From contig CP073212.1 of NCBI GenBank assembly GCA_020342235.1, positions 744,001 through 808,000 on the forward strand: 64,000 nucleotides of DNA, written 5' to 3'. Of this stretch, positions 12,536 through 21,082 are shown one piece after another. The notes beneath the pieces were generated by a model. The model ran no database searches. It had not been told where the DNA came from and saw only the letters and a list, made by a program, of their open reading frames with translations. The position numbers and the translations under genes are program-made. This DNA comes from Saccharomycopsis phalli. Its lineage: Eukaryota; Ascomycota; Saccharomycetes; Ascoideales; Saccharomycopsidaceae. Every line of letters begins with the position of its first letter. Within the stretch, counting starts at the first letter, position 1.

Positions 12536-14284
12536 ATGGAAAATTTTGCATACAGGAATCACGTTTCTGAAAGCGAAGTATCCGAGGGGCCTTTGGCCCC
12601 CTCGGTTCATCAATCATCAGCAGATTTCCCGGGAGATCCGCCCAGGATGATTGAAAAAAGCCCAGGCTCGCCGCGGCGGCCAATCCAGGAACCATGGTCA
12701 GATGCAACTGCATCGCACCAATCCCCTAACTTTGCCCCTGAGAGCAGCTCCGCTGCCCAACACGGGACAGAGTACCCCTCACCGACATCCAATTCCGTCT
12801 GGCCGACATCCCATTTACCGCTGCCGTTTGAGAAAGCGCTCGCACGGAGAATCCCTCTTCCTCCACTTACCGAAGACCTCCCAGAGTTCATCCGCACATG
12901 GATTATTACCACCAACAGCATTATGGAGGAGCTCTGCTCTAAACAACCAACACTACCTTGGCAAAAATCAACCACAGAGCGCATCGATCGCCTTGACAAA
13001 GATGCACAAGAAAACAAACAGGCCTACAGCACTCTAGTGAATGAGATCCGGGAGCTAAAGGCTGAATTCAGATCCACCAAAAGCACTAGCTACTCTCAAG
13101 CAGCCGCCCGGGGCATGAGAAGCAATCCACCGTCAACTCGTCCAACCCATAGGGGGCGCCCTAATTCACCTTACCGTATTGACGGAAGGGAGTTGTACGC
13201 TCAAGGGAAACTCTTCTACATTCAGAACCCGAATCCAAACCCATCTTCTCAAGCTGAAAGGGACCAACAAGTCAAGCAAGTCAACACTTTTTGCGAACAG
13301 ATCCCACAGGCGATTCGCGTCACTCTCACACGCTCCAAACAGATCAGAATTCACGCCTCCGAGCCATTGAGCACGGAGGCAAAGAATACTGTCCTTTCCA
13401 TCTTTGAATCACCGGGATTCTTCGACCCGAGCCCTTGGGCCACACGCGTCGTGGGGAACATCCCCCTCAAAGTCTCACCAGCCGCCCTTGAAGCTTTCTT
13501 CATAAAGGAAACCAAAAAAGCAGAATGGGATGATCCACTCTTCTCCGCCCCTCCACGAGCTCTCATCAAACGAGATGTCCACATTGACTGGGACAACATC
13601 TCAGAAGATAACGAAAAAGCTTACTTTGCCAAGCTCTTCTTTCCAAATGAAGACACTGCTACCTTCTTCACCAAGCAAAGTTTCTACCTTAACGGATATA
13701 CACCCATCCCAGTGCACGCCACGAGAGAGCGGTCAAATCCAAGAAAACGGCAACACATGAGCCCGCCAAATGAGCCAATCACAAGCCAACATAGCGGGTG
13801 AGTCACACGCAGTCAATCTCAAATGAGAATTCCACCACTGGAGGCCCAACCTCAAGCCACCACCCCACCATCAGCTACTCCAGATAGCGAGAAGGTACCT
13901 GAAACCCAAGTCAAGGACAACACCCCTGAGGACGACTCCTTGACCCACCAAGACAATGACTACAACGAATCCGAGGACATGGACCCGGACTATGTCCCAC
14001 AAGATGATCAGGAGAGAGACGATACATACCTGGACGACAACATGGATGAAGCATCAGAGCTCCAGTCAGGCCCAGAAGAGGAGCAGGAAGAGGAGCCCTC
14101 TCAGGAAAATGACGAAGACTCGACTCCATCAACAAACGAAGCCACTGTCAGCCGGAAAGCAATCAAGGCAGAAAGAATTGCAAAAGAGATTGAGAGTAAA
14201 GCCCGGAAACTCCGTCCCAGAATAAGTCTAGCCAAAACCTACCAGAGTGGGGCCTCCAAGTCTGGTCGCCGGCAATTAAAATGA
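12536..14284 (+). pseudogene. LINE-A ORF1 (RNA-binding/chaperone-type protein), one in-frame stop
   Basis: 583 codons including the final stop. Residues about 146-182 look like a coiled coil (ERIDRLDKDAQENKQAY, then LVNEIRELKAEF). A central domain (FFDPSPWATRVVGNIPLKVS) may be RRM-like. The last 150 residues are very acidic and then basic. A TGA at 13799-13801 interrupts the frame after codon 421; the other copy has AGA (Arg) at that place and reads through. The true stop (TGA 14282-14284) overlaps the ORF2 ATG. A GC-rich hairpin lies at 12582-12605, 43 nt after the ATG, conserved in both copies. ORF1 proteins coat the LINE RNA; that role is inferred from position and architecture. Confidence 0.8.
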
Positions 14285-17946: not shown

Positions 17947-18318
17947 TTTTCGCTATTATCAGCCCTTGCACCACATATTGGCTGCTGAACAACCTACTAT
18001 AGCCTTGTTTTTTTTGAACCTTGTAAAACCTTGTCTGCAAAACTGCATCCCCATGTGTAATTAAAGTAGTGTCATTAGCAATGTATTATTGCATCTATAC
18101 ACCACATATATGTTCGGGTTTTCTTATTACTAAGAGCACTCACACATCCAAACACAATTCATATGTCCGGATGTATATATATGAGTGCTTTTAGCAAGTG
18201 TGTACACCCGAACACCAATATGTTCAGGTGTTTTGTGTTGTGTTGCAAAATTTAAACTTCCAAACACCATAACGTCACGTTACACGATTACATCCTAACA
18301 TAACATGTCTAGATATTT
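17947..18318. other. Spacer with short repeated motifs
   Basis: Contains repeated forms of ATATGTTC(G/A)GGT at about 18108 and 18211 and a weak inverted repeat between them (GAGCACTCACACATCC against GGATGTATATATATGAGTGC). Possibly an old LTR remnant. No gene is visible. Confidence 0.3.
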
Positions 18319-18606
18319 ATAACAGAATTTATTTAACGCTTCTGCTATAACACTTATATCGAGTTAATCAGTAAGATAATAAGAGTAACTACAAATATAA
18401 GTTGTAAATAGTTCTAAAGTGAACTTAAGATATCCCATTACTAGCGACTTAAACAGCTATTTATACTTTTCCTAAGAATGGATTTGTACTTGTGTAATAT
18501 GTGGGACACTCCGAACACAATCACAATAGTACTAAGGAACACAATCACAACATTATCACAGGGTACAATCACGTGAAGAGTAGTCTTGACCTTTTCTCGT
18601 TACAAT
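18319..18606 (-). repeat. Old solo LTR, family F (Ty3/gypsy-like)
   Basis: Read on the minus strand it begins TGTAACGAGAAAAGGTCAAG and continues like the F copy at 49.0-49.4 kb, ending near GTTATA at 18319. Diverged; no clear target duplication. Confidence 0.55.
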
Positions 18607-18736
18607 ATTGTACAGTTGAGACGGAAGAAAAATAGACCGCAATATAATTTTGCAAATAGGTAAAGTATATTGAATATATTAATGAAAAACAACATGACAA
18701 TTATATATCGAACTTCAAAGCTTGACTTTGCCATAT

Positions 18737-18985
18737 TGTCGTAATCTAGCACAGATCCTTATGGCAACCATATCTTCTATTATAGATAATTCATCTTCTT
18801 GTTACTATTCTAGCTATTTTCTGTCCTATTTATATTATTCTCTAAGATGCATTCAGTTATCCTTAACTTCAGATGTCTGTACCGGTGATCTCCTTAATGT
18901 ATGACCCCACTGTCCATCTCCTTAATTTATGAGATCCCCAATAGGACGATCTCCTTAATCTCTAGGATCTTCGACATCTTCAACA
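18737..18985 (-). repeat. Solo LTR, family K (Ty1/copia), upstream of SPC1
   Basis: Plus-strand ends TGTCGTAATC and CTTCAACA, flanked by an exact 5-bp target duplication CATAT (18732-18736 and 18986-18990). It has the repeated CTCCTTAAT motif also present in the CopK LTR at 58963-59214. It ends 113 bp before the SPC1 ATG. Confidence 0.85.
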
Positions 18986-19098
18986 CATATTTCAATTAGT
19001 GTTTTCCATCCACCCGGACCTATAATATTGAAGAGTCGCCGGGCTCGTAATCTCCGGGCAACTTCATATATATGCCAGCGGGATATAAATACAAAACA

Positions 19099-19401
19099 AT
19101 GTCGCTTGCAGCAGTACAAGAACTCTTCATCGGAAGTATCGATTATAAAGGACAGGAGCAGGTCCAAACGATACTTAAGAAAACGCTCAACTTCACAGCT
19201 GTCAGTTCTTTTTGTTTTGGGTTTCTCTACCAGAATATTTACATTTCCCTTGGGGTATTTGCACTTGGGCTTGTTTTAAGCGGTGTGGCAATAATCCCAC
19301 CATACCAGTACCTCAATAAAAACAACTTGAAGTTCTTATTGCCACGGAATGCTGCCACGGAAACTGCTAATGTGTCAGGAACTGTCATCGATGTCAAGTA
19401 G
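19099..19401 (+). CDS. SPC1: Signal peptidase complex subunit 1 (SPC12-like)
   Basis: A 100-residue protein of the ER signal peptidase complex, a small non-catalytic membrane subunit. The start MSLAAVQELFIGSIDYKGQEQ matches the family pattern of a short cytosolic segment with an IDFxGQ-type motif. Two hydrophobic segments (about 31-49 and 51-69) form a hairpin, followed by PPYQYLNKNNLKFL, which corresponds to the conserved PPWPxYNRxPLxW. Yeast Spc1 is 94 residues. An in-frame ATG at 19072 would add nine residues but sits beside a TATAAAT (19083-19089). The stop (TAG 19399-19401) lies inside the start of the xylulokinase frame. A solo LTR lies 113 bp upstream of the start. Confidence 0.85.
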   Translation: MSLAAVQELFIGSIDYKGQEQVQTILKKTLNFTAVSSFCFGFLYQNIYISLGVFALGLVLSGVAIIPPYQYLNKNNLKFLLPRNAATETANVSGTVIDVK

Positions 19402-21082
19402 CACGTTTTTGGGATTCGACTTGTCAACCCAGCAATGTAAGGTAGTTGCAATAAACAGCCGTTTGGAGCTTTTGAAGGTGTATGCTGTAGACTTTGACGC
19501 CGACCTTCCACACTACGGCACCACTAACGGGGTAGTGACGCAGCCTGGAGGCCATGTGGTTGCACCGGTAGCCATGTGGCTTGAAGCATTAGACTTGGTG
19601 TTTGAACGCATGAGCCATGATGAATTTGATTTTGCCTCTGTGGCTGGTATCTCTGGGTCGTGCCAGCAGCACGGATCAGTGTACTGGGCAACTGGTGCTG
19701 CTACAGCGCTTCAATCCATTCATCACCACAGTTCGTTTCATGCGGCATTGGCCACAAGTTTTAGTCATGCTATGGCACCAAACTGGCAAGATCATTCAAC
19801 GGGAGCCCAATGTGACATGCTTACCCAGTGCATTGGAGGACTGGAGAACTTGGCGAAGGTTACGGGGTCAAAGGCGCACCACCGGTTCACCGGTTCGCAG
19901 ATTATGAAATTCATCCAAGACTACCCCTCAGAGTATGAGAACACCGAGAGGATTAGCCTTGTCTCGAGTTTTCTTACCAGTGTGTTACTGGGAAAGTACT
20001 GTGGCATCGACATGGCAGACGCCTGTGGCATGAATTTGTACGACATTAAGCAGAAACAATGGCACCGCGGCTTGGCTGCCTCTGTAGCTGGTGAAGCCAA
20101 TGTTGAGTCGTTGCTTAAGCGGCTTGGTGATGTTGAGCCTGTGGGTCACAAGTCCGTAGGTAGAGTGTCGCAGTTTCTCGTAAACAAGTACGGTTTTAGC
20201 AGCACATGTGCAATTTATCTGTTTACAGGTGACAATTTGGCCACGATTCTCTCATTACCATTGGTGAAAAACGACCTTTTGGTCAGCTTGGGCACTCTGA
20301 CCACGCTCCTCATGATCACAAACGACTATCAGCCTAGCCCGCACTATCATGTTATGATACATCCAACGGACCCTATGCTCTATATGAATATGATATGCTA
20401 CCTTAATGGTGCGTTGCCGCGGAATTCTGTTAGAGATGCAGTCAATGAGTCGTGCTCATGTTCACGTGACTCGTGGGACAAGTTCAGTGAAATCTTGTTA
20501 GGATCACAATTTCCGGCTTCTGCTGCTGGTCAGATCGGCGTTTATTTTCCAAAGGGTGAGATCATTCCCAACGTAGACCATCCGTTAACTGTACGTCACC
20601 GGTTTGACACGACATCGGGAAAGCTAGGCAAGAAATTGGATGGGTCTCCAGAGACTGACGTCAAAGGTATTGTAGAGTCACAAGCTCTTAGTTGCAGAAT
20701 TAGGATACAAGAGCTCTTGAAATCCTGTGTCGGCTCGCCTATGCCGCATAAGATCTTCTACGTTGGTGGGTCTTCGCGAAACCAGGCCATAATCAATAAA
20801 TTCAGCGAGATTCTTGGTAATGAGGAACAGAAAATTAATCATGGCAGAGGGAATTTTAGAAACGCCGAACCAAACGGGTGTGCCTTAGGCGGTGCCTACA
20901 AGGCTAATTGGTCGCATTATGTCAATCAGCCTGAAAATGCCTTTGTTGGATTCAATAAGTATTTGGAACTGAGATTCGAGTGGGATAACCTTGAAGAATT
21001 TCTGGTGGATTATTGTTGGGACAAGTATAAGGTTCCTGAAATGGCTCTACGTAACTTAGAGGATACTCTACAGCTAACATAA
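19391..21082 (+). CDS. XKS1: Xylulokinase (FGGY carbohydrate kinase)
   Basis: Phosphorylates D-xylulose to xylulose 5-phosphate in the cytosol, feeding the pentose phosphate pathway. From the ATG at 19391 it is 563 residues. The ATP-site motif FLGFDLSTQQCK begins at residue 5, SGSCQQHGSVYW follows at about 88, the catalytic Asp281 lies in TGDNLAT, and the second FGGY signature starts GGSSRNQAIINKF at 459. Because the conserved motif begins five residues after this Met, no later start is possible; ATGs at 19349 and 19370 lie deeper inside SPC1. The frame therefore overlaps SPC1 by at least 11 bp. A CTG codon in SVLLGKY stands at a position that is Leu in homologues. Confidence 0.93.
   Translation: MSSSTFLGFDLSTQQCKVVAINSRLELLKVYAVDFDADLPHYGTTNGVVTQPGGHVVAPVAMWLEALDLVFERMSHDEFDFASVAGISGSCQQHGSVYWATGAATALQSIHHHSSFHAALATSFSHAMAPNWQDHSTGAQCDMLTQCIGGLENLAKVTGSKAHHRFTGSQIMKFIQDYPSEYENTERISLVSSFLTSVLLGKYCGIDMADACGMNLYDIKQKQWHRGLAASVAGEANVESLLKRLGDVEPVGHKSVGRVSQFLVNKYGFSSTCAIYLFTGDNLATILSLPLVKNDLLVSLGTLTTLLMITNDYQPSPHYHVMIHPTDPMLYMNMICYLNGALPRNSVRDAVNESCSCSRDSWDKFSEILLGSQFPASAAGQIGVYFPKGEIIPNVDHPLTVRHRFDTTSGKLGKKLDGSPETDVKGIVESQALSCRIRIQELLKSCVGSPMPHKIFYVGGSSRNQAIINKFSEILGNEEQKINHGRGNFRNAEPNGCALGGAYKANWSHYVNQPENAFVGFNKYLELRFEWDNLEEFLVDYCWDKYKVPEMALRNLEDTLQLT

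Follow-up and report, generated by a model that had tools for sequence, protein, structure and literature searches.

Two conserved genes share a short coding stretch

How are two neighbouring yeast genes expressed when the second begins before the first has ended? The question is raised by SPC1 and a xylulokinase gene, which follow each other on the same strand of the 64-kb stretch of DNA analysed here (the window, to which all plain coordinates refer). The ATG of the kinase occupies 19391-19393 and the TAG stop of SPC1 19399-19401, and the two frames share the 11 bp ATGTCAAGTAG (19391-19401, forward strand), which hold the start of one gene and the end of the other. The original prediction of an 11-bp same-strand overlap was thereby confirmed from the sequence, as was its statement that the kinase cannot start later: the next in-frame ATG, at 19574, lies past the conserved FLGFDLSTQQ motif. 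The prediction had, however, overlooked two earlier in-frame ATGs. The figure of 11 bp holds for the ATG at 19391; because of those at 19370 and 19349, the overlap could also measure 32 or 53 bp, respectively. The overlap is genuine and, locally, unusual.

SPC1 (19099-19401, forward strand) encodes a protein of 100 residues, signal peptidase complex subunit 1, which matches Pfam SPC12 (64 bits, cut-off 23.6; E 1.4e-17) and is weakly similar to solved SPC1 chains (7p2p_D, E 0.00015; a chicken chain, E 0.012). It is the single SPC1 match in the whole genome (14,148,124 bases searched). Codon use is coding-like both over the gene as a whole (log score +13.5) and at its end (+2.3 for the last 11 codons), and the context of its ATG is good, at the 69th percentile among 51 ORFs. 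An in-frame ATG further upstream, at 19072, would extend the protein to 109 residues.

The xylulokinase (19391-21082, forward strand) has 563 residues, or 577 when counted from 19349. Its FGGY_N and FGGY_C domains score over the Pfam cut-off, and it is similar to the solved xylulose kinase chain 4bc2_A (E 1.7e-93), which we take to be the human one. The bacterial NCBIfam model XylB gave 126 bits, below its cut-off of 380. Here too there is a single match in the whole 14.15-Mb genome; the aldo-keto reductase family gave 12. The kinase frame is open downstream of a stop at 19328 and contains a possible N-terminal extension (19349-19390, forward strand) with the in-frame ATGs 19349 and 19370. The codon use of this extension is not coding-like (log score −2.9), as against +49.3 for the kinase from 19391, and all three ATG contexts are poor (18th, 8th and 8th percentile for 19349, 19370 and 19391 among the 51 ORFs). 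Since both genes carry conserved domains, the pair is not explained by chance open frames. Their conserved parts are 61 bp apart, the SPC12 match ending at 19344 and the kinase motif starting at 19406.

The kinase also bears on the genetic code. When CTG is read as serine, one of its motifs becomes SLGTSTT, in agreement with SLGTSDT in 4bc2. We compared the readings by the summed Pfam bits of four proteins (xylulokinase, HEM13, BIO4 and BIO5), and serine gave the highest sum (854.4), followed by alanine (847.8) and leucine (838.5), so that the organism is most likely a CUG-Ser yeast as judged from these scores. Single proteins differ little between the readings; alanine leads by 0.2 bits in BIO4 and draws level with serine in HEM13.

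Tandem gene pairs elsewhere in the genome

For comparison we took a 250-kb sample of this genome (200 kb from C1, 50 kb from C2; L004-L023 and L033-L037) and listed its ORF pairs with a crude ORF caller that takes the first ATG and misses intron-containing and short genes. The 46 tandem ORF pairs had a median gap of 1331 bp, an overestimate because of the genes that the caller misses, and five pairs overlapped by first ATG. Four of these five are retrotransposon pairs, as judged by Pfam matches on at least one member. In two of the five the second ORF carries reverse transcriptase and endonuclease domains and the first has no Pfam match; two others lie within what appears to be a single copia-type retrotransposon on C2, the domain scan having covered the ORFs on either side of its middle ORF, which crosses two loci. 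The fifth is BIO4/BIO5 (L010:593-2888), named from Pfam matches and, for BIO4, from PDB matches. BIO4/BIO5 was rejected as a second case of cellular overlap, since a later ATG (L010:1380) is preceded by 45 nt by the TATA box TATATATA and leaves a gap of 76 bp. The claim that same-strand coding overlaps are rare in yeast nuclear genomes fits this sample, in which none of the five overlapping pairs among the 46 is a clear cellular overlap.

The next closest cellular tandem pairs are ILM1/HEM13, with a gap of 79 bp, and RSC7/HSP12, with a gap of 99 bp if HSP12 starts at residue 27, as is likely. The names of all three pairs are presumed from Pfam matches. Like SPC1 and the kinase, these compact neighbours lie on the same strand with very little space between them, and the TATA box of BIO4/BIO5 sits inside the gap. 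They differ in that their gaps measure 76-99 bp, whereas SPC1 and the kinase share at least 11 bp of coding sequence and are about 90 bp tighter than compact tandem neighbours of the same style. SPC1-kinase is the only cellular same-strand overlap seen when set against the 250 kb sampled from its own genome, and stands apart within a compact style.

In the other orientations, overlap by first ATG was seen in 1 of 20 convergent and 3 of 19 divergent pairs; the divergent overlaps (8, 16 and 47 bp) probably reflect over-long first-ATG starts. Adjacent retroelement-like frames overlap by four nucleotides, ATGA, in four places: at 14281-14284 in the window (a pair that looks retroelement-like from its frames), and at L004:5416-5419, L005:7587-7590 and C2 local 19837-19840 (L034:9837-9840). 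This 4-nt ATGA overlap is the classic stop-restart arrangement. The LINE-type ORF pairs resemble SPC1 and the kinase in having overlapping same-strand frames; they differ in being part of a retroelement and in the form of the overlap, 4 nt as ATGA.

TATA boxes and start codons

Counted by gene and not by hit (one gene holds eight overlapping hits), a perfect TATAWAWR lies 25-74 nt upstream of the ATG in 10 of 76 sampled genes, one of the ten being a retrotransposon ORF; the smaller set gave 8 of 51. Seven further 50-nt bins covering 75-424 nt upstream held such a box in 0 to 4 of the 76 genes each, and the bin at 425-474 nt in two. At 18-65 nt upstream, 13.2% of genes have a perfect box, as do 1.3% of control stretches (152-200 nt upstream) and 0.6% of coding stretches. 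When one mismatch was allowed, the corresponding values were 31.6, 22.4 and 5.9%; since the control stretches reach 22.4%, the frequency of one-mismatch sites owes much to base composition. Because perfect boxes tend to sit near the ATG, the core promoter seems to need little room in this yeast. We draw no conclusions from an EM-trained TATA model, which drifted towards a mixed motif.

The motif TTACCCG/CGGGTAA, which we take to be Reb1-like, had 17 hits within 600 nt of the 76 genes, ten of them less than 100 nt from start codons. The proximity of TATA boxes to start codons also hints at short mRNA leaders. A passage of a review (PMC9604717) considers a scanning model of transcription initiation the more likely one for Candida albicans.

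At the SPC1 locus, a perfect match, TATATATG (19067-19074, forward strand), lies 32 nt upstream of the SPC1 ATG and is the likely TATA box of SPC1. A second one, TATAAATA (19084-19091, forward strand), lies only 15 nt upstream of this ATG, a proximity found in 1 of the 76 sampled genes, and is a candidate box for transcripts starting inside SPC1. Within SPC1 itself, the TATA-like AATAAAAA (19315-19322, forward strand; one mismatch) lies 34 nt upstream of the kinase ATG at 19349 and is a weak candidate for the kinase core promoter. No TATA-like site with fewer than three mismatches was found 18-65 nt before the ATG at 19391.

A proposed kinase promoter inside SPC1

We regard it as somewhat more probable than its opposite that SPC1 and the kinase are two transcription units, the kinase core promoter lying within the 300-bp SPC1 frame, where both it and the start sites are predicted from the sequence signals. 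Such a buried promoter also accounts for the junction most economically, with odds that we put at slightly better than even; the evidence for it is indirect. With the TATA box at 19067, SPC1 transcription would begin close to the SPC1 ATG. Transcription of the kinase would begin within SPC1, driven by either AATAAAAA (19315), with a short leader, or TATAAATA (19084), with a leader of about 230 nt if the start lies about 30 nt after the box. From either box the first ATG would be that at 19349, because no ATG occurs in any frame between 19099 and 19349; owing to this ATG-free stretch, any transcript starting in that interval would meet a kinase ATG first. With three in-frame kinase ATGs (19349, 19370 and 19391) the exact start would be uncritical. 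The overlap is most likely incidental to compaction, and its 11 bp would be an end state of this process and not a coupling device.

Several observations fit such an internal promoter: the tight tandem pairs BIO4/BIO5, ILM1/HEM13 and RSC7/HSP12, the one-mismatch site 34 nt before 19349, and the perfect box at 19084 so unusually near the SPC1 ATG. Something similar is described in a section of a study in which a test operon was introduced into S. cerevisiae, where cistron 3 became active after gene duplication and a shorter transcript begins within cistron 2 (PMC11952965). Against it stand the 66 of 76 sampled genes without a perfect box 25-74 nt upstream, the weakness of the internal TATA-like site (equal sites occur in 22.4% of control stretches) and the poor contexts of all three kinase ATGs. 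The SPC1 mRNA would, moreover, need to end within the kinase gene, and the 3′-end signals looked for are sparse between 19301 and 21400 (AATAAA at 19450 and 20795, TAYRTA at 21048), with neither TATATA nor TTTTTT in this interval. The locus lends itself to testing how far a yeast promoter can shrink while also encoding protein.

The absence of ATG from the body of SPC1 might have been taken for selection, as for leaky scanning, but this was rejected by synonymous resampling: in 20,000 resamplings of the SPC1 body an ATG never arose. The Spc1 amino-acid sequence alone dictates the absence of ATG, and the ATG-free stretch is therefore no sign of selection. Coding stretches of equal length are free of ATG in 339 of 2927 cases (about 12%), and in 1 of 51 when they directly follow a start codon.

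Alternative explanations

Of the three routes to kinase expression offered in the original prediction, a promoter within SPC1 has the best support, as inferred above; one mRNA carrying both genes found no support in the sequence, and for an unseen splice the signals turned out to be weak. A single mRNA carrying both frames is in our judgement unlikely; ribosomes would reach the kinase by terminating and stepping back 8 nt, or by leaky scanning that bypasses the SPC1 ATG. The spacing of stop and start is as tight as in known termination-reinitiation sites, ATGA overlaps join retroelement ORF pairs at four sites in this genome, and few polyadenylation-type signals follow SPC1. Leaky scanning needs the absence of an intervening ATG, which is seen here. 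Against a single mRNA speak the good context of the SPC1 ATG (69th percentile of 51 ORFs) and the poor ones of the kinase ATGs (18th, 8th and 8th). Calicivirus and influenza B termination-reinitiation sites, as described in one paper (PMC5972666), likewise have a start just upstream of the preceding stop; at our junction, in contrast, the TURBS core was not found and the first ORF is a cellular gene. Of the features of the viral type, the overlapping stop and start are thus present and the upstream TURBS motif 1, with its UGGGA core, is not. A search for this core and for a special RNA fold yielded neither: TGGGA is absent from 19261-19401, and the folding of the junction RNA is unexceptional (z 1.31). 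The first ORF is also long, at 100 codons, and the same paper calls reinitiation after long ORFs "presumably very rare" (PMC5972666). Bicistronic transcripts have been reported in S. cerevisiae (PMC8573964), a fungal 9-bp element supports reinitiation in yeasts (PMC10352335) and two 5′ leaders from P. pastoris drove the second cistron of a reporter (PMC3547764), whereas cistrons 2 and 3 of the operon introduced into S. cerevisiae were untranslated before selection, cistron 2 being translated under selection (PMC11952965). Those S. cerevisiae transcripts resemble SPC1 and the kinase, which could be co-transcribed, in joining two tandem ORFs with little space, but they have a spacer where our pair has a coding overlap (PMC8573964). 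A native bicistron in the strict sense, with a 563-codon kinase translated by a restart 8 nt upstream after the 100-codon SPC1 and without a viral-type TURBS, appears a little more doubtful again. If true, it would be a natural case of what a 2025 paper calls unreported in yeast (PMC11952965). The junction also lends itself to asking whether a second long frame of a single mRNA is ever translated in yeast.

Compared with such an mRNA, an upstream kinase exon with an intron spanning SPC1 (for example, from 18899 to 19401), which would free the mRNA of any coding overlap, seems improbable. GTATGA occurs at 18899 and TGCTAAT at 19365, and a hypothetical exon at 18873-18898 joined at 19402 would be in frame with the kinase motif, which chance alone allows about one time in three. 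The actin intron of the same genome, the one authentic intron used for comparison, has GTATGT and TACTAAC, and neither is near SPC1 and the kinase: a GTATGT-type donor with a TACTAAC-type branch site was not found there, GTATGA and TGCTAAT being what is present. Furthermore, the 5′ site at 18899 borders on repeated DNA, a CAG at 19376 follows the branch-like TGCTAAT more closely, and an in-frame ATG already stands where the kinase should begin. An error of assembly or base calling is slightly more improbable still. A run of five A (19318) and one of five T (19406) lie near the junction, and some shifts would fuse the two frames into one. A one-base shift to the third frame would end SPC1 at a stop starting at 19317 or 19368, and the opposite shift after 19330 would let it run on into the kinase frame. 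Both frames are, however, coding-like (+13.5 for SPC1, +49.3 for the kinase and +2.3 for the last 11 SPC1 codons), and no single indel can restore a normal intergenic region between conserved parts 61 bp apart; on account of this distance, a one-base error could change the overlap, but the crowding would survive. Least credible, and very improbable in our view, is that through the overlap a secretion subunit is expressed in step with pentose metabolism. The suggestion of such coupling found no supporting evidence: adjacency alone speaks for it, and we know of no functional link between the two proteins. In the open-access literature searched, no paper joined SPC1, xylulokinase, overlap and yeast, and none dealt with the junction by title.

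Surroundings of the locus

Upstream of SPC1, similarity searches found DNA resembling other places in the window and the genome at 18735-18986 (no strand assigned), which ends within 113 bp of the SPC1 ATG; the remaining 18987-19098 gave no repeat match in searches of the window and the genome. Further upstream, the segment 17601-17945 recurs elsewhere in close copies (up to 99%), and 18314-18609 is repeated at 97-99% in full-length matches. Because repeats reach so near the SPC1 ATG, part of the upstream region of SPC1 may derive from a mobile element. On the other side of the pair, many ORFs between 22600 and 62200 look retrotransposon-like when read from the sequence and lie around tRNA genes; this is perhaps a pericentromeric or tRNA-targeted insertion region. 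The 64-kb window holds six tRNA genes, compared with five in the 250-kb sample.
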